A stretch of 64,000 nt of DNA from Phenylobacterium sp. (GTDB lineage: Bacteria; Pseudomonadota; Alphaproteobacteria; Caulobacterales; Caulobacteraceae): contig NZ_JAUXSP010000015.1 in the NCBI RefSeq assembly GCF_030679875.1, positions 186,001 through 250,000 of the forward strand, in the 5' to 3' direction. Made by a program: the position numbers and the translations under genes. The notes under the pieces are model-generated. The model was given only the letters and a program-made list of their open reading frames with translations, was not told the DNA's origin and searched no databases. This document shows positions 1 through 12,736 of the stretch, one piece after another (within the stretch, counting starts at the first letter, position 1; each line of letters begins with the position of its first letter).

Positions 1-1010
1 ACTTCTACGACCGCTATTTTTTCAATGGCTACAGCCCCGACGGAGCCACCTATTTCGCCATCGCCTTCGGGATCTATCCGCACCTGAATATCGCCGACGC
101 CCATTTCAGCGTCATCCGCGACGGCGTGCAGCATTGCCTGCACGCCTCCCGGGTCCTGCATTCAGAGCGGCTGGACATGACGGTGGGGCCCATCACCATC
201 ACAGTGGTCGAACCCCTGCAGGTCCTGAAGGTCACCGTGGCCGGCGATGAGGGCCTGGCCTGCGAGATCACCTTCACCGGCCGGGCCTTCCCCATCGAGG
301 AGCCCCGCTTCACCCGCCGGATCGGGCCGCGGGCCTTCATGGACTATACCCGCCTGACCCAGAACGTCCGCTGCACAGGCTGGATCGAGATCGACGGCGT
401 CCGCCAGGACCTGCCGGACGGGACGGTGGGCTCCCGCGACCGGTCCTGGGGCATCCGGCCGGTGGGCGCGCCAGATCCTCAGCCGCCAGTTCCCATGACC
501 ATGACCGGCTTCTTCTGGCAGTGGACGCCGTTGAACTTCGCCGACCAGAGCCTCTTCTTCCACGTCAACGCCGACCCGGACGGGACCGCCTGGAACACCC
601 GGGCGGTGGTGCTGCCCGATGGCGCTGCGCAAGGGGGCGGCTATCACACCTCGGCGGCCAGGATGACCGGGGTGGCGCTGGTCCCCGGGACCCGCCACGC
701 CCAGGGCGGCGTGCTGGAAATCCCCTCTGGAGAGGGTCTGATTAGGGTCCATTTTGAGCCATTTCTGACCTTTTTGATGCGCGGAATCGGCTATTCCGGC
801 GCCTGGCGACACGGCGCCTACAAGGGCGAGCTGGTGGTCGAGCGGGAAGACATCGACCTGGCCAGCGCCGACATGGGGGCGGCCGAGCATGTCCACATCC
901 AGGCCCTGTCCCGGGTCACCCTGACCGCGCCAGGCCAGGCGCCGCAGCAAGGCCTCGGTGTCTTCGAGCAGCTGATCGCCGGCCCCTATCAACCCTACGG
1001 CCTCGGCTGA
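1..1010 (+). CDS. Hypothetical protein, 5'-truncated by the window edge
   Basis: The reading frame is open from base 3, upstream of the first internal start, so the gene begins outside the window and at least 335 residues are present. The C-terminal half carries a DRSWGIRPVG motif. I associate this motif with lipocalin-like/AttH-like uncharacterised proteins (DUF7064/7065 type) often found beside lipid and aromatic catabolism genes in Caulobacterales and sphingomonads. No catalytic motif or membrane segment is evident. An alpha/beta hydrolase follows 70 bp downstream on the same strand. The family assignment is from memory of one motif and is tentative; the gene itself is well supported by its long uninterrupted frame. 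Confidence 0.75.
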   Translation, partial: FYDRYFFNGYSPDGATYFAIAFGIYPHLNIADAHFSVIRDGVQHCLHASRVLHSERLDMTVGPITITVVEPLQVLKVTVAGDEGLACEITFTGRAFPIEEPRFTRRIGPRAFMDYTRLTQNVRCTGWIEIDGVRQDLPDGTVGSRDRSWGIRPVGAPDPQPPVPMTMTGFFWQWTPLNFADQSLFFHVNADPDGTAWNTRAVVLPDGAAQGGGYHTSAARMTGVALVPGTRHAQGGVLEIPSGEGLIRVHFEPFLTFLMRGIGYSGAWRHGAYKGELVVEREDIDLASADMGAAEHVHIQALSRVTLTAPGQAPQQGLGVFEQLIAGPYQPYGLG

Positions 1011-1079
1011 GGCCCCGCAGGGCTTGCCAAGGCGGCGCCGGACTGATGGGCTGGGCGCCATCCCAGACAGAGGTGAACC

Positions 1080-2045
1080 ATGCGGCGGTTTCTTGCTCAG
1101 CTCTTCGGTCCGGCGCCCACGGCGGCGGCGCCATCTGACACGACGACGGCGGCGGCCCCGCGAGCGCCAGCAGCCGGCGTCGAGCGCACCTGGACTTCCA
1201 GCGATGGGCTGAGCCTGTCGGCCCGGGACTACGACGGCGCAGGCGGCCCCGCCCGGCTGCCGGTGATCTGCATCCACGGCCTGACCCGCAATTCCCGGGA
1301 CTTCGAGGACGTGGCGCCGGCCATGGCCGCCACCGGCCGCCGCGTGCTGGCCCTCGACATCCGGGGGCGCGGCCGTTCGGCCTATGACCCCAACCCGACC
1401 AACTACAACCCCGCCGTCTATGCCGGGGACGTGGCCGCCCTGATGAGTGAGGCCGGAATCGCCCGGGGGATCTTCCTGGGCACCTCCATGGGGGGGCTGA
1501 TCACCATGACGCTCGCCACGATGCGCCCGGACCTGATCGCCGGCGCCGTCCTCAATGACATCGGCCCGGAGATCGCCACCGAGGGCCTGACCCGGATCAG
1601 CGGCTATGTGGGGTCGGGCGAGCCGGCGGCCAGCTGGGCCGAGGCGGCCGAACGGACCCGGGCGATCAATGGCTCAGCCCAGCCGCATCTCAGCCCCGCC
1701 GACTGGGACCGGTTCGCCCGGCGCACCTGGCGCGAAGCTGAGCCGGGCAAGCTTGTCCTCGACTACGATCCGGCCATCGCCCAGGCCTTCGCCGGAACGC
1801 CGGCCGGCGCGCCGCAGACCAGCCCCGACCTCTGGCCCCTGTTCATGGCCCTGGCGATCAACCGGCCGATGCTGCTGGTGCGCGGCGGCGCCTCGGACCT
1901 GCTGGCCGAGGGCACGGCTAGCCGGATGCAGGCCCTGGCGCCGCAGATGCGCCGGGTGGATATCGAGGGCGTCGGCCACGCCCCCACCCTGGACGAGCCG
2001 GCCGCCCGCAAGGCGATCACCGACTTCCTGTCCGACGCCCCGTAA
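1080..2045 (+). CDS. Alpha/beta-fold hydrolase
   Basis: This 321-residue protein is an alpha/beta hydrolase of unknown substrate. The oxyanion-region motif ICIHGLTRN is followed by the nucleophile elbow GTSMGG (catalytic Ser) and a C-terminal GHAP that supplies the catalytic His; an Asp lies in the RGGASDLL segment. The start ATG is preceded by AGAGGTGA, a usable ribosome-binding site. The first 40 residues are Ala/Thr-rich and poorly conserved-looking, possibly a linker or weak membrane association. The gene ends five bases from the convergent globin gene. The substrate could be an ester, lactone or ring-cleavage product; nothing in the sequence decides. Confidence 0.85.
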   Translation: MRRFLAQLFGPAPTAAAPSDTTTAAAPRAPAAGVERTWTSSDGLSLSARDYDGAGGPARLPVICIHGLTRNSRDFEDVAPAMAATGRRVLALDIRGRGRSAYDPNPTNYNPAVYAGDVAALMSEAGIARGIFLGTSMGGLITMTLATMRPDLIAGAVLNDIGPEIATEGLTRISGYVGSGEPAASWAEAAERTRAINGSAQPHLSPADWDRFARRTWREAEPGKLVLDYDPAIAQAFAGTPAGAPQTSPDLWPLFMALAINRPMLLVRGGASDLLAEGTASRMQALAPQMRRVDIEGVGHAPTLDEPAARKAITDFLSDAP

Positions 2046-2049
2046 GCCT

Positions 2050-2556
2050 CTAGCGTTCGACCACGTCGCCCTTCATGGGGGCGAGCCTGGCTAGAAGTCG
2101 GTTCTGGGCGCGGAAGGGGACGCCCGCATCGTCCATGGCGCCTTGCAGGTTCTCCACCAGGGCGTTGAACTCAGCGGTGGTGATCCCGAGGTCCTTGTGG
2201 GCGGCGGCCATGTCGCGACCACTGTAGGCGCAGGGCCCGCCCAGGATGAAGCAGACCTGCTCCTTCAGGGTCCGGCGCAGGCGCGCCAGGTCGGTAGGCT
2301 TGAAGATCTCCTCCAGCCGCGGATCACGCACCGAGCGGTCGACCAGATCATCGATGATCCGGCTGACCCCTTGCACACCGCCCAAGGCCTCGAAGACGGC
2401 GTCCTCGGCCATGGGGGCCGCCCCGGCGTTGGCGTCGTCTACGGCGTAGGGGTCGATGGCCTCTTCTCCCGGGTGCGCCCAGGGGGTCGGCTGGGCGGCG
2501 GCCGGGAGGGGCAGAATGAGGACGGCGGCCAGAGAGAGCGCGAAGATCGGTCGCAT
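2050..2556 (-). CDS. Exported group 1 truncated hemoglobin
   Basis: This 168-residue protein has a truncated-globin domain from about residue 50 (EDAVFEALGG) to the C-terminus. The expected proximal haem ligand is H120 in MAAAHKDLGIT, and the GGP and YSGRDM motifs of group 1 truncated hemoglobins are present. The chosen start gives a clear signal peptide (MRPIFALSLAAVLI...AAAQ), so the globin is predicted to be periplasmic. Longer upstream in-frame codons read into the neighbouring gene and give no sensible leader. Two cysteines (C102, C109) flank the haem region and could form a disulfide. The start overlaps the stop of the DUF3034 gene (TGATG), so translation is probably coupled. Truncated globins bind O2, NO or related ligands; the role here is unknown. 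Confidence 0.87.
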   Translation of the reverse strand: MRPIFALSLAAVLILPLPAAAQPTPWAHPGEEAIDPYAVDDANAGAAPMAEDAVFEALGGVQGVSRIIDDLVDRSVRDPRLEEIFKPTDLARLRRTLKEQVCFILGGPCAYSGRDMAAAHKDLGITTAEFNALVENLQGAMDDAGVPFRAQNRLLARLAPMKGDVVER

Positions 2557-3431
2557 CAGAAGCCCGCCTGGATCGAGAGATAGAGACCGCGCTGATCCTC
2601 GAAGGTGGCGATGTCGCCGAGATCGGCATAGGCGGCGGTGATGGAAAGGTTCTTGTTCACCGCATAGGCGGCGAAGAGGTCGAACCAATCGTCCTCCCGG
2701 GCGAAGCCGAGATTGTCGGGCTTGGTCCGGTATTCCGCGCCGACCAGCAGCCGCTTGGTGAGCAGCACCCCGGCCGAGCCTTCGAACTGCAGGCTGTAGT
2801 CGTCATTGCGGTCACCGCCAAAGCCCAGCAGACCGCCCTGATTGGCCCGGGTGGCGCGCACGGTTCCGTTCAGCAGCACGCTCTGGTCCAGCAGGATCTT
2901 GGTGGCGGCCACATAGTAGTCGACGCCCTCATGGTCGCGTCCGCCGATGGCGGCGATCACGCCGGGCTGATTGTTGGACTTCCACTGGGCGCCGATGGCC
3001 ACCTGCGGCGTCCAGCGGTCCTGGTCATAGACGGCGTCGCCGAAGACCCGCAGCTTGGCGCCCAGGACATCCTGGCGAAAGGTGAAGCCCTCGCCCAGAC
3101 CCAGGCGTGCGCCCGTGGGGCCGGTGTCGAAGGTCTGCCGGGCATAGGACAGCTCCAGCCGGTCCTGAACGCCCAGGGCGATGCCGCCCGAGCGAAACTG
3201 GTAGTCCGGCAGGTCGACGACCGTGGCGTGCGCATTGGCGCCCACCTGGCCCTGGCTGCCATAGCCTGTGATCATCGCCCAAGGCGCAAGGCCGCCGCCG
3301 CCAGCCCCCTCCACGCTGGAGACGCCGCCGGTCAGCAACAACTTGCCGCTCCGATCCGCCTCCTGCGCGCCAGCCGCCCCAGTTGTAAGGGCCAGCCACA
3401 ACCCAGTGACCGCTGTCAAACGTCTGAACAA
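2556..3431 (-). CDS. DUF3034 family exported protein
   Basis: The sequence looks like a DUF3034 protein, an exported family of about 290 residues rich in amphipathic beta strands and ending in an aromatic C-terminus (YLSIQAGF), as outer-membrane barrels do. I place the start at a TTG (position 3431), because it gives a convincing signal peptide beginning FRRLTAVTGLWLALTTGAAGAQ and follows an AGCGGGGG purine-rich site. The ATG at 3581 would add 50 residues of non-signal sequence. The gene is translationally coupled to the exported globin downstream and divergent from the cupredoxin-like gene. An outer-membrane location is inferred from sequence character only. Confidence 0.8.
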   Translation of the reverse strand: MFRRLTAVTGLWLALTTGAAGAQEADRSGKLLLTGGVSSVEGAGGGGLAPWAMITGYGSQGQVGANAHATVVDLPDYQFRSGGIALGVQDRLELSYARQTFDTGPTGARLGLGEGFTFRQDVLGAKLRVFGDAVYDQDRWTPQVAIGAQWKSNNQPGVIAAIGGRDHEGVDYYVAATKILLDQSVLLNGTVRATRANQGGLLGFGGDRNDDYSLQFEGSAGVLLTKRLLVGAEYRTKPDNLGFAREDDWFDLFAAYAVNKNLSITAAYADLGDIATFEDQRGLYLSIQAGF

Positions 3432-3626
3432 GAGACCCCCGCTGATGATGCATTGCGCCGAACCCGGCGCCGCACCCGGTATTTTCGCAGGGGAAGTGTT
3501 TATGAAATATTCACCACAGCCGCACGCAGACTTCATGCCTGGACGATCAGGCCCTATGCCGAAGTATATCCACCCGTTCACGCCCTCAGGTGGTGTTGAA
3601 ATATCGCTACATCTGAAAGCTTAGTC

Positions 3627-4250
3627 ATGCCCAAGGCCCGCATTCTTCTGGCCAGCCTCCTGGTCTCCGCCGTCTGCGCCTTCGCCGCCCAGGCCGCAGA
3701 CCTGCAAGTGACTGTGACCAATCTGGCCGGGGCGCCGGTCCGAGACGCCGTAGTGACGGTCAAGCCGGCGGTGGGGGGATGGGCCGTCAACAGCCGCACC
3801 AAGTTTTCCTGGGACTACCAGATGGTCCAGCACAACATCATCTTTGACCCGCATGTGCTGGTGGTTCCGACGGGCGCGGAGGTGACCTTTCCCAACCGGG
3901 ACAAGGTGCGGCACCATGTCTATTCCTTCTCTCCGGCCAAGACCTTTGAGATCAAGCTGTATGGGCGCGAGGAGAACCGCAAGGTGGTGTTCGACAAGGC
4001 CGGCGTGGTCTCCGTCGGCTGCAACATCCACGACGGGATGATCGCCTACGTCTTCGTCTCCGACACCGTTCACGTGGCCAAGACCGGCGCCGATGGGGTG
4101 GCGGTTGTACGCGGCCTGCCGGCCGGCGCCGCGCGCCTGGCGGTCTGGCAGCCGAAGCTGCGCGCCGCAGGGGCTGAGAAGGTCCAGTCCGTCACCCTTC
4201 CGGCCCAGGGGGTCCTGCGCCAGACCGTAGCGGTCAATATTCGACCCTAG
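3627..4250 (+). CDS. Cupredoxin-like periplasmic protein ('methylamine utilization protein' type)
   Basis: This 207-residue protein has a signal peptide ending around AAQAADLQ. A cupredoxin-like core contains HHVYSF (H96/H97) and GCNIHDGM (C132, H135, M138), the His/Cys/His/Met arrangement expected of a type 1 copper site. A C-terminal Ig/carboxypeptidase-regulatory-like strand region follows. Similar proteins are often labelled methylamine utilization protein, although no amine dehydrogenase genes are present here, so that name should not be read as a function. It is divergent from the DUF3034/globin pair. Its stop overlaps the stop of the convergent EAL gene by three bases. Electron transfer or copper/redox sensing in the periplasm is an inference. 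Confidence 0.82.
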   Translation: MPKARILLASLLVSAVCAFAAQAADLQVTVTNLAGAPVRDAVVTVKPAVGGWAVNSRTKFSWDYQMVQHNIIFDPHVLVVPTGAEVTFPNRDKVRHHVYSFSPAKTFEIKLYGREENRKVVFDKAGVVSVGCNIHDGMIAYVFVSDTVHVAKTGADGVAVVRGLPAGAARLAVWQPKLRAAGAEKVQSVTLPAQGVLRQTVAVNIRP

Positions 4251-6628
4251 GCTGACTGGCGGGTCCGCAGGGCGTCGTCGGCCAGGAAGGCGCCCAGGGC
4301 CTCCAGCGTCATGGGCCGGGCGATCAGATAGCCCTGGGCGCTATCGCACCCCAGCGCGCCCAGCAGGGCGAAGACGGCCTCGGTCTCAACCCCTTCGGCG
4401 ACAACCTTCATCCCCAGGCCGTGGGCCAGGTCGATGGTGGAGCGAACGATCAGGGCGTCGCGGCGACTGTCGGCCAGGCCGCTGATCAGGGCCCGGTCGA
4501 TCTTCAGCTCATGGCCGCGGATCTGCTTGAGATAGGCCAGGGACGACAGGCCCGACCCGAAGTCGTCGATGGAGATCTCGATGCCCGCCTCGGCGAAGCG
4601 GTCGATGATCTTCAGGGCTAGGTCCGGGTTCTCGATGACCGCCGTCTCAGTAATCTCGAAGCACAGACGGCCCCGGGCCTTGGCGGCGGCGGCCAGGGCG
4701 AAGTCGGCGAAGTCGCTGTCCCCCAGCAGGCGGCCCGACACATTGACTGAAAAGGCCAGGTCATGGCCCTGGTCCAGCAGGACCCCCTGGTCCTCGATAG
4801 CCTGGTTGATCACCCAGTCGGTCAGGGCGCGGATATGGCCGGTCTCCTCGGCCATGGGAATGAACAGGTCCGGCCGGATCAGGCTTCCGTCCTCCCGCCG
4901 CCAGCGGATCAGGCTTTCGACGGCGTTCACCTGGCCGGCCCGCAGGTCGAACTTGGGCTGGTGGTGGAGCAGCATGTGGCCAGACTCGATGGCCCCCAGC
5001 ATCCGGCTCATCAAGGCCAGGGAGGCCGAGGGATCGCCATAGGCCAGCCCGTCAAAGGCCGCCACCTTGACCCGGGCGACCCGGGCCTGGTCGAGCGCGA
5101 TATTGGCCCGGTCTACGGCGAAGGCGCTGGTCTGGTCTTCCAGCCGCGGCGCTAGGCCGATGGTCAGGTCGACATCGATGGCCTCGCCTTCCACGGAGAC
5201 CGGCGATTGCAGCGCCTCAAGCAGCTGGTGCGCCTCGGCCAGGGCCGCCTCGGCGTCCCGTGAGCGCAGGACCAGCCCCAGGGCTTCGCTGGAGACCCGG
5301 GCGGCATGCCCCTCGGGAGCTGCGCCCTGCAGGCGTTCGCCGATCTTCTGGACCATGAGGCCGGCCAGCCGGTAGCCGATGGCGCTACGGACCTGGGCGA
5401 AGCGTTCGACCCCGACCACGGCCACATAGGTGTCCCTAGCCGAGGTGCGGTCCAGGGCCTGTTCGAGGGCCAGGCGGTTGGGCAGGCCGGTCTCGCTGTC
5501 ATGCATGGCCATGTGCAGGATCCGCCGCTCCCGCTCGCGGATCTCGTCAGCCATGGTGTTGAAGCTTGAGGCCAGGCGGCCGATTTCGTCGTCCCCGGCC
5601 ACGTCCACATGGGCCTCCTCCCCGCGGCTGAGCCGCTGGGCGGCCAGGTCGAGGTCGGCGATGGGGCGGGCCAGGCTGGAGGCCAGCATCCAGCTGCCCC
5701 CGGCCATGATGGCGAGGCCCGCAAGGCCAAGGGCCGCCAGCCAGGCCATCAGGGCGTGATAGGGCGCCAGCGCCAGACGCAGGGGATAGCTGAGCACCAG
5801 GACCGTCCTGTCGCCGGGTATCAGCGGCGGCAGGGTCTTGACCACCGCCAGGGAGCGGACCCCCTCGGTCCGCATGACGCGAACCGAACGCTCCTGATCT
5901 TGCAGGGTGGCGGCGATCCCGGCGATTTCCGAGGGCGAGAGGTCGCCAGCCTCGCCCCGCCACGTCCCGGCTGTCTGGCGGCGGACGGCGGCGGTAAGGG
6001 GAATGGCGGCCAGCGCCTCGAGCTGGCGCATCTGGGCGGCGTCCAGTCGCGCGGCGAACACCACCCAGCCCCGCAGGTCAGGCGCCAGGATCGGCGCGGC
6101 GACCATCTGATAGGGCTGATCGCCGACCACCAGCACGCCGGCGGCGTTCTCGTCGGCATAGAGGGCGTCCAGCAGACCAGAGGCGCGATCCCCAAGGGCT
6201 GCGGACTCATCGCCCAGCAGGCGGCCGTCAGCGGTGAGGATGAAGGCCTCGTCCAACTCCAGGCGGCTGCGGAGGTTTTCCATGGCCGAGACGACGGTGG
6301 CGGTGTCCTCCGTCGCCACGGCGGCGCGGAAACCGAAATCCCGGGCCAGCAGGGAGGCGCCCTGGCGCAACTGATCAGATCGGAGGGACCAGATGCGGTC
6401 AAAGACCGTACCGCTGGCCTCGAGTTCGGCGCGGACCTGCCGTTGGGCGCTGGCCGAGGTGGCCGCGAAGACCGCCACGGCGACCAGGGCCAGGATCAGA
6501 CCAAACAGGCCCGCATAGAGCACCGCCAGCCGGGTGCGCAGGCGGCTGAAGCCCCGGTGCGGGCCGTGGGCCGCGCGCCACAGCCCTCGCAGACGAACAG
6601 GGATCTGGCGGATCTGTAGGCCCTTCAT
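4247..6628 (-). CDS. Membrane dCache-HAMP-GGDEF(degenerate)-EAL c-di-GMP phosphodiesterase
   Basis: This 793-residue protein has transmembrane segments at about 33-58 and 292-315, enclosing a periplasmic sensor of about 230 residues that resembles a double-Cache (dCache_3-like) domain. A HAMP linker follows at about 316-368, then a GGDEF-fold domain at about 370-530 in which the signature is lost (SSEAL near 446-450). The EAL domain (about 545-785) reads ESL instead of EAL but keeps N629, the FEITE glutamates, DDFG (688-691), K709, AEGVE (744-748) and the QGY glutamine. It is therefore expected to hydrolyse c-di-GMP but not to synthesise it. It converges on the cupredoxin-like gene with overlapping stops. 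The sensed ligand is unknown. Confidence 0.9.
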   Translation of the reverse strand: MKGLQIRQIPVRLRGLWRAAHGPHRGFSRLRTRLAVLYAGLFGLILALVAVAVFAATSASAQRQVRAELEASGTVFDRIWSLRSDQLRQGASLLARDFGFRAAVATEDTATVVSAMENLRSRLELDEAFILTADGRLLGDESAALGDRASGLLDALYADENAAGVLVVGDQPYQMVAAPILAPDLRGWVVFAARLDAAQMRQLEALAAIPLTAAVRRQTAGTWRGEAGDLSPSEIAGIAATLQDQERSVRVMRTEGVRSLAVVKTLPPLIPGDRTVLVLSYPLRLALAPYHALMAWLAALGLAGLAIMAGGSWMLASSLARPIADLDLAAQRLSRGEEAHVDVAGDDEIGRLASSFNTMADEIRERERRILHMAMHDSETGLPNRLALEQALDRTSARDTYVAVVGVERFAQVRSAIGYRLAGLMVQKIGERLQGAAPEGHAARVSSEALGLVLRSRDAEAALAEAHQLLEALQSPVSVEGEAIDVDLTIGLAPRLEDQTSAFAVDRANIALDQARVARVKVAAFDGLAYGDPSASLALMSRMLGAIESGHMLLHHQPKFDLRAGQVNAVESLIRWRREDGSLIRPDLFIPMAEETGHIRALTDWVINQAIEDQGVLLDQGHDLAFSVNVSGRLLGDSDFADFALAAAAKARGRLCFEITETAVIENPDLALKIIDRFAEAGIEISIDDFGSGLSSLAYLKQIRGHELKIDRALISGLADSRRDALIVRSTIDLAHGLGMKVVAEGVETEAVFALLGALGCDSAQGYLIARPMTLEALGAFLADDALRTRQSA

Positions 6629-6791
6629 GGGCCAAGCCTAGGCCATGGGCCATGAAAGTCCGGTAAAGCTCGGCCGGGCCCTGCGGTGTTGCGGCTTGCC
6701 TTTGGGGCGCGGGGCTTGGCACTATCAAAAGATTGCACCGAAAGAGGCCGCGATTTTCAGCCGCCGGCCCAAATTTTGAGAGATTGAGACT

Positions 6792-7766
6792 TTGACGATT
6801 TTGGCTCAGGCGGCGAAGGCTTCGCCGTCGATGGATTCAGACGCCTTCGCCTCGGTCGACGCGGTCGTCCAGGGACTGGCCAGCGTGGGCTATATCGCCT
6901 CGCGCCGCATCGCCACGGCGCTCTACATGTCGGTCCACCTGCAAAAGCCGATCCTGGTCGAGGGTGTGGCCGGCGTCGGCAAGACGGAACTGGCCCTGTC
7001 GACCGCCACCCTGCTCGACCTGCCGCTGATCCGCATGCAGTGCTACGAGGGCCTGGACGAGTCCAAGGCCCTGTACGAGTGGAAGTACGGCAAGCAGCTC
7101 CTCTACACCCAGATCCTCAAGGACCGCATGGGCGCCGAACTGGCCGACGCGGCCGGCATGGACGAGGCCATGGAGCGCCTGCACGGCATGGGCGACATGT
7201 TCTTCTCCGAGCCCTTCCTGGAGCCCCGGCCCCTGATGAAGGCTCTGCGGGAGGATGATGGCTGCGTCCTCCTGATCGACGAGATCGACAAGTCCGACGA
7301 GGCCTTCGAGGCCTTCCTGCTGGAGGTGCTGTCGGCCTATCAGGCCTCGGTGCCTGAGCTGGGCGTCATCAAGGCCAAGACCCCGCCGATCGTCTTCCTG
7401 ACCTCCAACAATGTGCGCGACCTGGGCGACGCCCTGAAGCGCCGCTGCCTGCACCTGCACATCCCCCTGCCCGAGGCGAGCCTGGAGCGCCGCATCGTCG
7501 CCAGCCGGGTGCCGAACATCGAGGAGCGCCTGACCCACCAACTGGTCGGCTTCGTCCATGCCCTGCGCGAGATGGACCTGCGCAAGTCGCCCTCGATCTC
7601 CGAGACCGTCGACTGGGCCCGGGCGCTGATCCTGATGCACGCCGACAGCCTGGACGCGGCCATGGTCCGCGACACCCTGAACGTGATCCTGAAGTACGAG
7701 CAGGACATCCAGATGGTCGAGCCGCAGGTGAGCGAACTGCTGCGGACGGCCCAGGCGACTCCGTAG
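6792..7766 (+). CDS. MoxR-family AAA+ ATPase
   Basis: This is a 324-residue AAA+ ATPase of the MoxR family. Walker A is GVAGVGKTE, Walker B is CVLLIDEIDKSDEAFE, sensor 1 lies in FLTSNNVRDLGDALKRR, and a C-terminal lid follows. MoxR proteins act as chaperone-like ATPases that work with von Willebrand A (VWA) proteins in maturation of enzyme complexes. The start used is TTG after GAGAG; an ATG 39 bp downstream (position 6831) is an alternative that would trim 13 poorly conserved residues. A CoxE-like VWA gene follows eight bases later, forming a typical MoxR/VWA operon. The client complex cannot be told from this window. Confidence 0.92.
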   Translation: MTILAQAAKASPSMDSDAFASVDAVVQGLASVGYIASRRIATALYMSVHLQKPILVEGVAGVGKTELALSTATLLDLPLIRMQCYEGLDESKALYEWKYGKQLLYTQILKDRMGAELADAAGMDEAMERLHGMGDMFFSEPFLEPRPLMKALREDDGCVLLIDEIDKSDEAFEAFLLEVLSAYQASVPELGVIKAKTPPIVFLTSNNVRDLGDALKRRCLHLHIPLPEASLERRIVASRVPNIEERLTHQLVGFVHALREMDLRKSPSISETVDWARALILMHADSLDAAMVRDTLNVILKYEQDIQMVEPQVSELLRTAQATP

Positions 7767-7774
7767 GCGCCGCC

Positions 7775-9157
7775 ATGCAGCACCAGATGGAGGACTTCAT
7801 CCGCGCGCTCCGGGCCGCCGATGTGCGGGTCTCGCCGGTGGAGTCCATCGACGCCCACGAGGCCGTGGCCCGCATCGGCTATGCCGACCGCGAGCTGTTG
7901 AAGGACGCGCTCTGCGCCACGCTGGCCAAGAGCGAGGACGAGGTTCGGCGGTTCGACCGGGCCTTCGACGCCTTCTTCGCCCGCGACCCCTTCGACTTCG
8001 CCACCCCGCCCCCGCCGCCGGAGGGGGGCGAGGCCGCCCCGCCGGAGGCGAAGCTGGAGGACGTCTCCGAAGAGGCTGCCGGTTCGGAGCTGGCCCAGAT
8101 CATCCTGGCCGGAGATTCCACCGCGCTCAGCCAGGCCATGGAGAAGGCCGCCCAGGCCGCCCAGGTCTCGGAGATCAGGCTGTCGACCCAGAGGAGCCGC
8201 CTGACCCGGCGGCTGCTGGACGAGATGGGGGTGGCCGAGATCGAGAAGATCATCAGCCAGGCCCGAAGGCTCGAGGGCGAGGGCGGAGCCGCCCTGGCCG
8301 ACCGGCTGGAGGCCGGCCGCAAGATCGTGGCGGCCGAGGCCCAGCGCTATGTCCAGCGCCAGCACGACCTCTATGCCGCCGAGAGCGGCCGCCAGCTGCG
8401 CGAGGAGCTGTTGGCGCGCAAGGCGCTGAACGCCGAGGGGGGCATCGATCCTGTCGACCTGCAGGTGATGCAGGCCCTGGTGCGCAAGATGGCCAAGCGC
8501 CTGGCCGACCGATACTCCCGGCGGCGCAACCGGGCCCGCCGGGGCCACCTGGATGTCCGCCGGACGCTGCGCCAATCGATGGCCTATGGGGGCGTGCCGT
8601 TCAACGTGGTCTGGAAGACCGAGCGCGTCGACAAGCCCAAGATCATCGCCATCTGCGACGTCTCCAAGTCGGTGGCCGCGGCCGCCCAGTTCCTGCTGAC
8701 CTTCCTCTACAGCCTCAATGAGGTGGTCGACCGGATGGACGCCTACGCCTTCTCCGGCCGCATGATCCCGGTGAACCAGATCCTGGACGAGCACGGGGTG
8801 GACAAGGCGATCCTGGAGGTCCTCAAGCTGATCGGCTTCCAGCAGACCGACTATGGCCGCGCCCTGCAGGACTTCGCCGAGAACCATCTCGACAAGCTCG
8901 ATCGCCACACCACGGTGATCTTCCTGGGCGACGCCCGGTCCAACTATGCCGATCCGCGCCTGGACATCATGCGCACCATCCACGAGCGGTCCCGCTCAGT
9001 GATCTGGCTGAACCCGGAGCCGGAGAGCTACTGGAACCAGGGCGACAGCGTCATGAACCGCTACCTGCCCTTCTGCCACCTGGCCAAGACCTGCAACACG
9101 CTCGACCAGCTCGAACGCATCATCGAAGACGTCCTGCGCCAGTATGTGCCTCACTGA
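7775..9157 (+). CDS. CoxE-like VWA domain-containing protein
   Basis: This 460-residue protein has a C-terminal von Willebrand factor A domain. Its metal-ion-dependent adhesion motif is ICDVSKSVAA (DxSxS), with a second conserved acidic stretch at FLGDARSNYADPR. The N-terminal half is helical and charged, as in CoxE proteins, which partner MoxR/CoxD ATPases in Mo/Cu carbon monoxide dehydrogenase maturation and other systems. The middle carries an Arg-rich stretch (YSRRRNRARRG) seen in this family. It is coupled to the upstream MoxR ATPase. No CO dehydrogenase subunit is adjacent, although a Mo-hydroxylase (IorBA) lies about 1 kb further on the opposite strand. Confidence 0.9.
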   Translation: MQHQMEDFIRALRAADVRVSPVESIDAHEAVARIGYADRELLKDALCATLAKSEDEVRRFDRAFDAFFARDPFDFATPPPPPEGGEAAPPEAKLEDVSEEAAGSELAQIILAGDSTALSQAMEKAAQAAQVSEIRLSTQRSRLTRRLLDEMGVAEIEKIISQARRLEGEGGAALADRLEAGRKIVAAEAQRYVQRQHDLYAAESGRQLREELLARKALNAEGGIDPVDLQVMQALVRKMAKRLADRYSRRRNRARRGHLDVRRTLRQSMAYGGVPFNVVWKTERVDKPKIIAICDVSKSVAAAAQFLLTFLYSLNEVVDRMDAYAFSGRMIPVNQILDEHGVDKAILEVLKLIGFQQTDYGRALQDFAENHLDKLDRHTTVIFLGDARSNYADPRLDIMRTIHERSRSVIWLNPEPESYWNQGDSVMNRYLPFCHLAKTCNTLDQLERIIEDVLRQYVPH

Positions 9158-9288
9158 GGGGGGTTAGATGCGGCGGGGCCAGCGGCCAGTGATGTGGATG
9201 CCATCATCCGTGGGTCGACGACAGCAGCCGCGACCCCTTCCAGGACCATTCCCAGCCGCCCAAGAAGCGTACCTGAAAGGCGATCCGG
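9158..9288. other. Intergenic remnant between coxE and the DUF3800 gene
   Basis: This 131-bp spacer holds no intact gene. A short plus-strand frame from 9214 to the stop at 9276 reads like the polar tail of a protein (ends DPFQDHSQPPKKRT), but an in-frame stop lies close upstream and no start or body is present. It may be the 3' end of a gene whose remainder was lost when the DUF3800 gene arrived. This reading is speculative. Confidence 0.3.
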
Positions 9289-10029
9289 TCAAGCACCCCA
9301 TCCGCCGACGCGGGTAATTGCCTCCTCAAGCTCGATCAAGAGCGGGCGTCGATAGGCAATGGTCTTGTCCAGCGGCCGAACAAGCGCCACGAGGTCGGCG
9401 CGGCTCACCCGCACATTATTCATTCCACGAATAAAGTCGTTCCGCCAAAGCCACGCCAGGAGATCAGCCGACTGCAGCGGGACGACCTTAGTCTTCTCGA
9501 CGAAGGTGTGATTCCCGTAGGCGAAGCGCCGACGCGCCTCTTCATGCTGGAACACCTCGTGCATGATCCGGTTCGCTTCGCTTTGGTCACGGTGGCCTGC
9601 CTCAAAGAAGTAGGCGATCTCGCCGCGGAAGTTGGTGCGCTTCCGCCAATCGCTTATCGCTGCAAGGCAGCCCCGAAGGCAGAACGAGTATGCCCCACCG
9701 ATGCTTGGCTTCGGGGTGATAATTTCGTTGTACTCTCGCTCATCCACTGTGACTGAAAAGCCGAACACGGCGCAGTCATGGATCGTAGCAATCAACTCCT
9801 TCTCGACCTCGATGCGCTTCTGTTTGTGCATGTGGTCAAATGGGGAATTGCCGGGCGCGAAGTCCACCATGTGGAAAAAGGGAATCTTCTCCCGCTTCAG
9901 GACTTTTCCCCATTTCTTAGTGAAGCGGTTGGCCCCTGCCTTCAGGAAAAGATATCCGGCCACGCACATGACCGGCGACCCGTCGTGGGTCCCGCTCTCA
10001 TCAATATAGACCTCTGCAAACGCCGCCAA
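9289..10029 (-). CDS. DUF3800 domain-containing protein
   Basis: This 246-residue protein has the hallmarks of DUF3800: an N-terminal YIDESG motif and a C-terminal LQSADLLAW motif, with conserved Asp/Glu residues consistent with an RNase H-like nuclease fold. Base composition and codon use are visibly lower in GC than both neighbours (AAT, AAA, ATA and TTT codons are frequent). It stands alone with no operon partner, between a possible gene remnant and IorB. These points suggest recent horizontal acquisition. DUF3800 genes are frequently found in mobile or defence-like contexts; no molecular activity is claimed here. Confidence 0.85.
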   Translation of the reverse strand: MAAFAEVYIDESGTHDGSPVMCVAGYLFLKAGANRFTKKWGKVLKREKIPFFHMVDFAPGNSPFDHMHKQKRIEVEKELIATIHDCAVFGFSVTVDEREYNEIITPKPSIGGAYSFCLRGCLAAISDWRKRTNFRGEIAYFFEAGHRDQSEANRIMHEVFQHEEARRRFAYGNHTFVEKTKVVPLQSADLLAWLWRNDFIRGMNNVRVSRADLVALVRPLDKTIAYRRPLLIELEEAITRVGGWGA

Positions 10030-10094
10030 AGCTTCCCACCCCGAGACAAGTACAAAAATGGAATGCGTAGCGGTTGGTTGTTCGGGGTAGCGAC

Positions 10095-12269
10095 CTACCC
10101 CGCCGCCAGCTCCGACGCCTTCAGCGGCAGGCTCCGCACCCGCTTGCCCGTGGCGGCGAAGATGGCGTTGGTGACGGCTGGCACCACCGGCGGCAGGGCG
10201 GGTTCGCCCAGGCCCGTGGGCGGGTTGTCGGACTTGATGAAGTGGGTCTCGATCACCGGCGCATCAGCGATGCGCAGCAGGGGGAAGGTGTCGAAATTGG
10301 CCTGTTCCACCTGGCCGTCCTTGATGGTGATCTCGCCGAACATTTCGGAAATGCCGTCGATCACCGAGCCCTCGATCTGGTTGAGCGCGCCGAGCGGATT
10401 GATGATCTGGCGGCCGACATCGGCGGCGACCCAGACCTTCTCAACCTTCACCGTCCCGTCCTGCGCGACGGCCACCTGGGCCACCTCGGCAAAATAGCCC
10501 AGATGGCTGTAGTGGAAGGCGATGCCCTGGCCCTGGCGGGGGCCGAGCGTGGTCTTGCCCCAACGGGCCTTTTCGGCGGCCAGACGCACGACGCCGGCCA
10601 TGCGTTCGGCGTCAAAGGCGCCGCCGCTGGACTGGGCCAGCAGGCGCAGGCGCATCTCCACCGGATCGACGCCGCCGGCATGGGCCAGTTCGTCGATGAA
10701 GGACTGCACCACAAAGGCGATGGCGTTGCTGCCCGGGGCGCGCAAGGGGCCGGTGGGCACGCCCAGCGGCATCATGGAGACGTCGAGCTTGTAGTTGGGA
10801 AGGAACTGGGCGGGGAATTCGGTGGCCGCCATGCCGGCGCTGCGGGCCGTGGCCTCACCTTCGCCAAAGGTGACGAAGTGGTTGGCCCAGGCGGTGATGT
10901 TCCCCGCAGAGTCGACCCCGCCGCGGAAGTGGTGGAAGCCCGCCGGCCGATAGAAGTCGTGGCGCATGTCGTCTTCGCGGGTCCAGACCAGCTTGACCGG
11001 GGCGCCGGCCTCCCGGGCGATCCAGGCGGCCTCGACCATGTAGTCGTTCATCAGCCGGCGACCAAAGCCGCCGCCTGAGCGGGTCATGTGGACGATGACG
11101 TTTTCCGGCGCGATCCCCAGGGTCTTGGCGACCAGCTGGCGGCCGGGCTCGGGCAGCTGGGTCGGGGCCCAGATCTCCATCTTGCCGTCATGGAAGTGCG
11201 CCGTGCAGTTCTGCGGCTCCAGCGTGGCGTGGCTGAGGAAGGGATAGAAGTAGTCGGCCTCCACCGTCTTGGCCGAGCCCGACAGCGCGGCCTCGACATC
11301 GCCGTCGCTGCGCAGGGACTTGCCGCCCTTGGCCGCGACGAGGCTGCGGGCCTGGCCGGCATAGCCCGGTGTGGACTGGCTGGAGGTCGGATGATCCGCC
11401 CACTGAACTTTTAGCGCCTGACGGCCCTTGTTGGCGGCCCACCAACTGTCGGCGACCACGGCGACGCCGGGCAGCAGGCCGTCGAGTTCGGTCCCGCCCT
11501 CGACCACGAAGGCCTTGCGCACGCCCTTGACGGCTTGCGCCGCGGCGAGGTCGGCGCCGGCCACCTTTGCGGCGAACACGGGCGCCTTTTCATAGGCGGC
11601 GTAGAGCATGCCCGGCAGGCGCATATCGATGCCGAACAGGGGCTGGCCGGTGACGATGGCGGCGGTGTCTACCTGGGGGATGGGCTGGCCGATGATGCGG
11701 TAGTTCGCGGCGTCCTTGAGCTTCAGGCTCGAAAGTTCCGGCGCGGTCTGGGTGGCGGCCTTGGCGGCGAGCGCGCCATAGGTCGCCCGGCGGCGGCTGG
11801 CGGCATGGACGACCACGCCGGGCTCCGTCGTCAGGCTGGCGACATCGACGCTCCAGTCGGCGGCGGCCGCGGCCATCAGCATGGCGCGCCCGGCCGCGCC
11901 GACCTGGCGCAGCTGGTCCCAATGCAGGGGGGTGGCCATGCTGCCGCCGGCGAACTGGCGGCCATAGGCTTGCGGATCATTGCCGGCCTGGACCGTGCGG
12001 ACATTGGCCCAGTCCACGTCCAGCTCCTCGGCGATCAGCATGGGCAGGGAGGTCTTGATCCCCTGGCCGATCTCCGGGTTCTTCGACACGATGGTGATGA
12101 TCCCATCCGGGGCGATCTGCACATAGGCGTTGAGCTTGGCGGGGCCATCGGCCGCTGCGCCCTTGCCGGCGAAGGAGAAGGCCAGGACCAGACCGCCGGC
12201 GCCGCCGCCAGCCAGCACGGCCCGGCGGGAGGGGGAGAAGCCCTGAGTGATGTTGGTGATCATGCCCAT
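10095..12269 (-). CDS. iorB: Isoquinoline 1-oxidoreductase-type molybdopterin subunit (IorB-like)
   Basis: This 724-residue large subunit belongs to the xanthine-oxidase/aldehyde-oxidase family and lacks an associated FAD subunit, like IorB. It begins with a twin-arginine leader (SRRAVLAGGGAGGLVLAFSF), so the folded heterodimer should be exported by Tat. Cofactor-region motifs include GQGIKTSLPMLIAEELDVDW and SGGGFGRR. The start at 12269 lies in GGAGGCCTGAAGACC-ATG, five bases after the IorA stop; the upstream in-frame extension overlaps IorA in another frame and is rejected. IorAB of Brevundimonas diminuta hydroxylates N-heterocycles, but related enzymes oxidise aldehydes, so the substrate is open. 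Confidence 0.9.
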   Translation of the reverse strand: MGMITNITQGFSPSRRAVLAGGGAGGLVLAFSFAGKGAAADGPAKLNAYVQIAPDGIITIVSKNPEIGQGIKTSLPMLIAEELDVDWANVRTVQAGNDPQAYGRQFAGGSMATPLHWDQLRQVGAAGRAMLMAAAAADWSVDVASLTTEPGVVVHAASRRRATYGALAAKAATQTAPELSSLKLKDAANYRIIGQPIPQVDTAAIVTGQPLFGIDMRLPGMLYAAYEKAPVFAAKVAGADLAAAQAVKGVRKAFVVEGGTELDGLLPGVAVVADSWWAANKGRQALKVQWADHPTSSQSTPGYAGQARSLVAAKGGKSLRSDGDVEAALSGSAKTVEADYFYPFLSHATLEPQNCTAHFHDGKMEIWAPTQLPEPGRQLVAKTLGIAPENVIVHMTRSGGGFGRRLMNDYMVEAAWIAREAGAPVKLVWTREDDMRHDFYRPAGFHHFRGGVDSAGNITAWANHFVTFGEGEATARSAGMAATEFPAQFLPNYKLDVSMMPLGVPTGPLRAPGSNAIAFVVQSFIDELAHAGGVDPVEMRLRLLAQSSGGAFDAERMAGVVRLAAEKARWGKTTLGPRQGQGIAFHYSHLGYFAEVAQVAVAQDGTVKVEKVWVAADVGRQIINPLGALNQIEGSVIDGISEMFGEITIKDGQVEQANFDTFPLLRIADAPVIETHFIKSDNPPTGLGEPALPPVVPAVTNAIFAATGKRVRSLPLKASELAAG

Positions 12270-12274
12270 GGTCT

Positions 12275-12736
12275 TCAGGCCTCCTGGCCGGCGGCGCGCT
12301 TGATGGCTGCGCGGATGCGAACATAGGTGGCGCAGCGGCAGATGTTGCCCGCCATGGCCGCGTCGATGTCGTCGTCGGTGGGGGCCGGGTTCTGGGACAG
12401 GAGCGCGGTGGCCGACATGATCTGGCCGGGCTGGCAGTAGCCGCACTGGGCCACGTCAAGCTCGCTCCAGGCCTTCTGGACCCGGGCGCCGACCTCAAGC
12501 GCGCTGGCGCCTTCGATGGTGGTGATCTTGGCGTCGCCGATGGCTTCGATGGGGGTCATGCAGGCGCGGATCGGGGCGCCGTCCGCATGGACGGTGCAGG
12601 CGCCGCACTGGGCGATCCCACAGCCGAACTTGGTGCCCACCAAACCCAGGGTGTCGCGCAGCACCCACAGCAGCGGGGTGTCGGGATCCACGTCGGCGTT
12701 CATCGTCACGCCGTTGACGTTGAGCTCGTAGGCCAT
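12275..12736 (-). CDS. iorA: [2Fe-2S] subunit of IorAB-type hydroxylase
   Basis: This 153-residue protein carries two [2Fe-2S] clusters. The N-terminal plant-type ferredoxin cluster has ligands in [10 protein letters not shown] and a following Cys (IRAC). The C-terminal helical cluster has ligands in CGYCQPG and NICRC. It passes electrons from the Mo cofactor in the downstream subunit to an external acceptor, probably a cytochrome. The ATG at 12736 is preceded by AAGGGGACGGGG and gives the usual MAYELNVNG start; the ATG 36 bp upstream adds a charged, atypical extension. It forms an operon with iorB. No adjacent cytochrome or maturation (XdhC) gene is seen. Confidence 0.93.

Follow-up and report, generated by a model that had tools for sequence, protein, structure and literature searches.

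A cluster of four genes with interlocked ends occupies positions 2050-6628 of a 64,000-nucleotide stretch of Phenylobacterium sp. DNA (contig NZ_JAUXSP010000015.1, positions 186,001 to 250,000; the whole stretch is called the window here). The genes are predicted to encode an exported globin, a DUF3034 outer-membrane barrel, a copper protein of the cupredoxin type and a membrane-bound receptor with an enzyme domain for cyclic di-GMP (c-di-GMP) breakdown. Sequence comparisons suggest, with a probability of roughly 0.6, that together they form one envelope-spanning signalling module in which the cupredoxin provides the receptor's input. Taken separately, it is very probable that the four genes are a functional unit, and the balance tips slightly towards the cupredoxin being the receptor's input subunit. 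The association of the four families across Pseudomonadota is far above chance, and the set consists of two tight couples, DUF3034 with the globin and the cupredoxin with the receptor's sensor domain, that join.

The presence of four genes with interlocked ends, described in a first-pass annotation of the window, was borne out by the sequence, the layout of open reading frames (ORFs) and Pfam, and both the TGATG coupling and the overlapping convergent stops reported there were confirmed in the sequence. The features are:

2050-2556, minus strand: globin gene (PF01152), ATG at 2556, gene end at 2050
2554-2558, minus strand: TGATG overlap, the DUF3034 stop (2558-2556) sharing a base with the globin ATG (2556-2554)
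2556-3431, minus strand: DUF3034 gene (PF11231), inferred TTG start
3432-3626, no strand: divergent intergenic region between DUF3034 and cupredoxin genes, about 195 bp, from the gene layout
3627-4250, plus strand: cupredoxin gene (type 1 ligands, AlphaFold2 (AF2) model)
4247-4250, no strand: convergent stop overlap, cupredoxin stop 4248-4250 and EAL stop 4247-4249, two bases in common
4247-6628, minus strand: EAL receptor gene (Pfam EAL, GGDEF, HAMP, dCache_3 and CHASE4)

Judging from the layout, the region 3432-3626 may hold the promoters for both divergent transcripts. No sigma-70 consensus was found in window positions 1900-6900, and Rfam gave no match in positions 1-12000.

The four families co-occur across Pseudomonadota

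When species genomes were searched with an alignment of DUF3034, 242 places were confirmed, of which the best 80 were taken; with ten further loci and the window these made a set of 91 loci (90 after removal of one duplicate). A globin gene adjoined DUF3034 in 88 of the 91. DUF3034 loci were found in Caulobacter, Phenylobacterium, Sphingomonas, Rhodospirillales, Arenimonas, Rhodanobacter, Frateuria, Zoogloea and others. Below, loci are numbered with L and genomes with G.

Each family was also searched in a draw of 398 Pseudomonadota genomes, with strong matches set at 106 bits or more for the globin and 116 bits or more for the long form of the cupredoxin; in some of the family searches the best 6, 8 or 11 candidates per genome were scored, so that those counts may be low. 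DUF3034 was present in 39 genomes, the strong globin in at least 41, the strong long cupredoxin in 53 (59 places, one merged from two weaker pieces) and the sensor domain in 48 (55 places). At E <= 0.001, cupredoxin-like matches occurred in 94 genomes and globin matches in at least 120. DUF3034 and the globin lay within 3.5 kb of each other in all 39 DUF3034 genomes, the long cupredoxin was present in 38 of these (Fisher 1e-39, uncorrected for kinship) and the sensor in 37, and 47 of the 48 sensor genomes had the cupredoxin. Linkage followed the same pattern: within 3.5 kb, 46/55 sensors had a cupredoxin and 44/59 cupredoxins a sensor, while DUF3034 had a cupredoxin in 33/39 genomes and a sensor in 31/39. 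Grouped by taxon (a hand count on group codes), the cupredoxin accompanied DUF3034 in 27 of 28 genera and 12 of 13 families, the single genus lacking it being that of G354, which carried DUF3034-globin only. A five-fold control with DUF3034 in 14 genomes was positive in none (0/14). The first-pass annotation had named the absence of a conserved neighbourhood as grounds for giving up the link between the genes; the neighbourhood was found throughout the phylum and not only in Alphaproteobacteria.

Seven genomes (G480, G398, G646, G492, G527, G412 and G513) contained all four families with incomplete linkage. In G398 the sensor-EAL gene stood with DUF3034-globin, at a distance from the cupredoxin, and G412 and G513 had DUF3034-globin-cupredoxin together and the sensor apart; G303 carried DUF3034-globin-cupredoxin and gave no sensor match. 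G169 and G266, in which DUF3034 had neither globin nor other partners, gave no cupredoxin match. In two sampled genomes of the window's own genus, no DUF3034, cupredoxin or sensor was detected at E <= 0.001, and one had a weak globin match.

The cupredoxin is paired with the receptor's sensor domain

The cupredoxin's usual partner was the sensor domain of a receptor, whereas the output domains varied and included EAL, nucleotide cyclase, Ser/Thr kinase and histidine kinase. EAL was the output in 87 of 96 sensor ORFs, the remainder including fragments. An adenylate/guanylate cyclase output was found in L184 and L186 and a Ser/Thr kinase in L195; in L216 a histidine kinase hybrid lay about 1 kb away.

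The type of cupredoxin followed the type of sensor. All 74 receptor-bearing DUF3034 loci with a long cupredoxin had a dCache_3/CHASE4 sensor, three of them by weak matches (L078, L085 and L089 at 1e-10, 1e-9 and 9e-5, with Pfam CHASE4 below its cut-off and no output domain). All 16 loci with a short single-domain cupredoxin had a 4HB-like sensor; these were alphaproteobacterial wherever named, several being Rhodospirillales. Among the 11 short-type receptors that were scanned, nine ended in a histidine kinase and two (L068, L079) in PAS-GGDEF-EAL. The 4HB label passed the Pfam cut-off in 3 of these 11 and otherwise came from a profile built in this analysis, which matched 17 ORFs without HAMP and 126 in an earlier version that included it.

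In L013 a 4HB histidine kinase and the cupredoxin share a single open frame, with the cupredoxin at its C-terminal end behind a third hydrophobic segment, an apparent natural fusion of the two proteins in one genome. A second candidate fusion of cupredoxin and sensor, in L032, was discounted because the way its ORFs overlap makes a frameshift likely. Taken together, the cupredoxin-sensor pairing, the varying outputs, the matched types and the one apparent fusion strengthen the earlier proposal of a periplasmic haem or copper input. The broader claim that a periplasmic signal feeds c-di-GMP turnover stands as an association, carried by the phylum-wide co-occurrence, but not as a mechanism.

The receptor is predicted to be a c-di-GMP phosphodiesterase

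The window receptor matched Pfam EAL (1e-64), GGDEF (5e-13, with a degenerate motif) and HAMP, and in its sensor region dCache_3 (7.5e-12, 45.8 bits against a cut-off of 25.7) and CHASE4 (1.7e-7, 31.9 bits against 26.2). With two transmembrane segments at residues 36-54 and 292-310, the predicted order is transmembrane segment, dCache_3/CHASE4-like periplasmic sensor, transmembrane segment, HAMP, degenerate GGDEF and EAL phosphodiesterase. All nine EAL catalytic residues (E, N, E, D, D, K, E, E, Q) were intact. Across the sensor-EAL family, eight of the catalytic columns were intact in 87 of 87 ungapped rows and the ninth in 86 of 87, one further row being gapped; these profile columns superseded a simple motif regular expression, whose counts (18/87 with all motifs) were misleading. 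In the window receptor SSEAL replaces GGDEF, and GG[DE]EF was intact in 24 of 87 relatives. Because the EAL columns are kept and GG[DE]EF is mostly lost, the predicted output is phosphodiesterase activity; a diguanylate cyclase identity was rejected on the SSEAL motif.

Cys, His and Met each stayed at or below 36% in every column of the periplasmic sensor alignment, consistent with metal sensing having been handed to a partner protein. Comparison of the sensor profile with solved structures gave no confident match (best E 0.68).

The cupredoxin is inserted into a carboxypeptidase-regulatory-like domain

The window cupredoxin scored under the cut-off of each Pfam copper family that it matched (Copper-bind, 15.4 bits, cut-off 21.2). 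However, H96, C132, H135 and M138 did not vary across the 34 rows of its alignment, and all 132 ungapped cupredoxin rows (one duplicate genome included) had the type 1 ligands H, C, H and M. In the AF2 model (predicted local distance difference test (pLDDT) score 91), residues 61-146 matched cupredoxins (VIA Z 13.6 to 5fc9, 82 aligned, root-mean-square deviation (rmsd) 1.8) and residues 24-206 matched carboxypeptidase regulatory domains (carboxypeptidase N, Z 11.8, 79 aligned, rmsd 1.9). The model thus describes a type 1 cupredoxin set into a carboxypeptidase-regulatory-like domain, and copper binding is predicted. The protein shares its fold with amicyanin, pseudoazurin and plastocyanin, and its H...C-x2-H-x2-M ligands align with those of amicyanin, but it differs from all three in this insertion. 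A crude scan found a signal-like N-terminus in 119 of 131 cupredoxins. Relatives carry the NCBI name 'methylamine utilization protein', which is probably a misnomer.

Some cupredoxins distant from DUF3034 had other neighbours. Exported barrel-like proteins, recognized by eye, adjoined them at L188:6670-7914, L192:6646-7911, L182:8350-9606 and L190:987-1859, and a Pfam scan of those in L188, L182 and L190 gave no match; the outer-membrane partners of the cupredoxin may thus be of several kinds. At L230:4949-8903, on a Comamonas aquatica plasmid, a Pfam DUF4394 protein stood directly upstream of cupredoxin-EAL, and at L185:6734-8291 a gene that by eye resembled it lay ahead of the cupredoxin.

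The DUF3034 protein and the exported globin

The window DUF3034 protein matched the whole PF11231 model (positions 1-255, E 2e-106, 355.6 bits against a cut-off of 25). Its AF2 model (pLDDT 79) was a 12-strand barrel with a C-terminal Phe and resembled many outer-membrane channels, among them FapF (VIA Z 19.5, 217 aligned, rmsd 2.9), the COG4313 channel (Z 17.9, 220 aligned, rmsd 3.2) and PcoB (Z 13.1, 181 aligned, rmsd 3.8), identifying it as a predicted outer-membrane beta-barrel. In the open-licence papers, as far as their available text extends, DUF3034 is mentioned only incidentally. DUF3034 occurred without a globin, cupredoxin or receptor nearby in L017, L021 and L049, a possible separate use of the barrel.

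The globin matched PF01152 (E 9e-17, 61.8 bits against a cut-off of 21), and the solved chains nearest to it were those of Mycobacterium tuberculosis HbN, with 1idr aligned without gaps (E 5e-22). The proximal His was kept in 125 of 125 aligned globins, and two further columns were each Cys in 120 of 125. At the positions that we take to be B10 and E11, in an alignment frame drawn from the 1idr comparison, the Tyr and Gln of HbN occurred in none of the 125 (0/125 for each); B10 was mostly V, L, M or I, and E11 was L, F or I. The TyrB10-GlnE11 distal pair of HbN is tied to nitric oxide (NO) dioxygenation, and an HbN-type NO dioxygenase identity was ruled out by those residues. The globin is predicted to be an exported, group-1-like truncated haemoglobin with a signal peptide, a proximal His and, both distal residues being absent, an apolar distal pocket. 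It resembles HbN in sequence family and proximal His, but differs in being exported, in its two conserved Cys and in lacking TyrB10 and GlnE11 throughout the alignment. A signal-like N-terminus was found by the crude scan in 122 of 125 globins, and the three that were missed appear exported by eye.

Gene layouts

The compact layout of the window is a minority rearrangement. The EAL gene was convergent with the cupredoxin in 8 of 128 DUF3034 loci, two of which carry a second cupredoxin ahead of EAL. The commonest arrangement, cupredoxin-receptor divergent from DUF3034-globin, was found in 37 of 128, cupredoxin-receptor-DUF3034-globin in one direction in 22 and DUF3034-globin-cupredoxin-4HB receptor in 12. 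In L027 and L033 the EAL gene is flanked by two long cupredoxins, one ahead of it and one beside DUF3034, and loss of one copy from an arrangement of this kind may have given rise to the convergent layout of the window. A quick tree of DUF3034, with SH-aLRT support only and a single copy taken for loci that have two, requires at least 10 layout changes among the receptor-bearing loci. DUF3034 also lay on 13 plasmid records; in two Caballeronia plasmids the genes for DUF3034, the globin, the cupredoxin and the EAL protein form a single run, and the divergent form occurs on a Novosphingobium plasmid.

Neighbours within 7 kb were clustered, giving 24 clusters each present in at least 5 of 90 loci. 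Beyond the four families the recurrent clusters were, by eye, mostly like antisense shadow ORFs. A small secreted protein recurred in 8 loci (by eye, not scanned). A gene resembling an extracytoplasmic function (ECF) sigma factor (by eye, not scanned) lay near DUF3034-globin in ten loci (L028, L044, L051, L057, L065, L069, L074, L078, L085 and L089), seven of them with no cupredoxin or receptor nearby, hinting at another regulatory input.

Proposed mechanism and alternative explanations

In the mechanism that we propose, DUF3034 would act as an outer-membrane channel or platform, and the exported globin and the blue-copper protein would reside in the periplasm, holding haem and copper. The copper protein would dock on the periplasmic sensor domain of the receptor. 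Whatever passes DUF3034 or is bound by the globin (copper, NO, O2 or some other oxidant) would determine the redox or metal state of the copper protein, and HAMP would relay this state to the EAL domain, which would hydrolyse c-di-GMP. Other lineages would have kept the metalloprotein front end, or its copper part alone, and changed the sensor or output of the receptor. An outside-in direction of signalling is favoured because the EAL domain appears intact and because kinase and cyclase outputs occur. A further suggestion, tentative at best, is that the cluster represents a new class of envelope signalling, with DUF3034, globin and cupredoxin as a haem-copper front end, an interchangeable redox or ligand input subunit able to dock on a variety of inner-membrane receptors. 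The signal that sets c-di-GMP, cyclic AMP or cyclic GMP, or phosphorylation outputs would then be the blue-copper protein's electron or metal state rather than a small ligand.

A number of observations weigh against a single module with the cupredoxin as input. Among the 128 DUF3034 loci, 26 had a globin but no cupredoxin or receptor within 4 kb, eight had a cupredoxin without a recognized receptor, one (L223) had a sensor without a cupredoxin and three had neither globin nor other partner. In the genome draw, 15 of the 59 places with a cupredoxin had no sensor close by and 9 of the 55 with a sensor no cupredoxin, 15 of 53 cupredoxin genomes had no DUF3034, and the Fisher values (1e-37 to 3e-53) are not corrected for kinship. 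The stretches that hold the cyclase and kinase loci L184, L186, L195 and L216 contained no DUF3034, and L195 and L216 matched the sensor weakly (3e-11, 4e-14). On the DUF3034 tree the switch of receptor type needs only 3 changes at fewest, and the pairing of cupredoxin and sensor types therefore rests on few independent events. In L013 an in-frame GTG (no ATG) upstream of the hydrophobic segment makes separate initiation possible, and signal peptidase could cut the fusion protein. Finally, the sensor may bind a ligand of its own, by analogy with the copper-binding CHASE4 domain of PA14_37690.

Cupredoxins are usually electron carriers, which counts towards an alternative in which the cluster is a redox or detoxification machine: the cupredoxin would re-reduce the globin haem, NO, peroxide or another small molecule entering via DUF3034 would be consumed, and the receptor would sense the same molecule directly. 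The export and co-inheritance of a haem protein and a blue-copper protein fit this scheme, as does the binding of metal or haem by relatives of the sensor fold themselves, described in the available text of PMC10904736 and PMC13277305. On the other side, TyrB10 and GlnE11 are missing from every aligned globin, the cupredoxin type tracks the sensor type, and the cupredoxin and sensor stay together without DUF3034 too (47 genomes had cupredoxin and sensor, 37 had DUF3034 and sensor). We consider this alternative unlikely.

Acquisition of copper or another metal, with DUF3034 importing, the cupredoxin carrying the metal and the receptor reporting the supply, would account for the exported barrel-like proteins seen by eye beside DUF3034-distant cupredoxins in several loci and for the likeness of the DUF3034 model to outer-membrane channels including PcoB (Z 13.1). 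However, it leaves the globin unexplained, type 1 sites usually carry electrons, and no copper transporter or chaperone was recognized among the 24 neighbour clusters (by eye, not scanned); it is improbable. The reverse direction of signalling, in which a LapD-like degenerate GGDEF-EAL protein reads cytoplasmic c-di-GMP and controls the periplasmic metalloproteins, draws on the HAMP and periplasmic domains of the receptor and on the loss of an intact GG[DE]EF in 63 of 87 relatives. It conflicts with the intact EAL catalytic columns and with related receptors that have cyclase or kinase outputs, and LapD identity was rejected by the NCBIfam equivalog model (84.9 against a cut-off of 1020), so that this scheme appears more doubtful still. 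Chance proximity, or common regulation without a functional link, is very improbable, being contradicted by the counts in 398 genomes and by a linkage that survives rearrangement and a co-occurrence that survives unlinking.

Relation to known systems

Proposed as a module with a copper-protein input, the cluster has partial parallels among described systems. CHASE4 c-di-GMP proteins of Pseudomonas aeruginosa bind iron, haem or copper (PMC10904736, PMC13277305, from the text available); among them IsmP/ImcA, PA2072, PA14_37690 and PA0847 share with the window receptor a place in the membrane, GGDEF-EAL or GGDEF domains and a CHASE4 sensor in the periplasm. In those proteins, as the same text describes them, the sensor itself binds the metal, whereas the window cluster encodes separate copper and haem proteins with a receptor whose sensor family has no conserved Cys, His or Met. 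YfiBNR joins an outer-membrane protein, a periplasmic protein and an inner-membrane c-di-GMP enzyme (PMC4887326, available text) and so resembles the window cluster in spanning the envelope. However, it is described there with a cyclase output and YfiR, where the window cluster has a predicted phosphodiesterase output and metalloproteins, and YfiBNR identity was rejected since no OmpA or YfiR domain was found at E <= 1 in the four window proteins. DbfQ binds the sensor domain of the adjacent kinase (PMC12714742, available text), and DbfQ-DbfRS, in which the gene for a small periplasmic protein adjoins that of the membrane sensor to which the protein binds, offers a precedent for the cupredoxin and its receptor; the likeness is one of description only, and the available text mentions no metal, barrel or globin, unlike the window cluster. 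As these sources describe them, none of the CHASE4 proteins, YfiBNR and DbfQ combines a globin with a cupredoxin and a DUF3034 barrel. No description of the four-gene cluster was found in open-licence papers.

The association places DUF3034, exported truncated globins and the 'methylamine utilization protein' in a common setting, and it suggests candidates for the input proteins of orphan c-di-GMP receptors, which form a large class. Should the copper protein be the input, a dedicated protein would read the redox or metal state of the periplasm and pass it to swappable outputs.

Genes adjoining the cluster

An AAA ATPase followed by a CoxE-like VWA protein is encoded at window positions 6792-9157 (plus strand), adjoining the EAL gene in divergent orientation. 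Beyond these lie a DUF3800 protein at 9289-10029 (minus strand) and a molybdopterin hydroxylase large subunit (MoCoBD_1 and MoCoBD_2) at 10095-12446 (minus strand).

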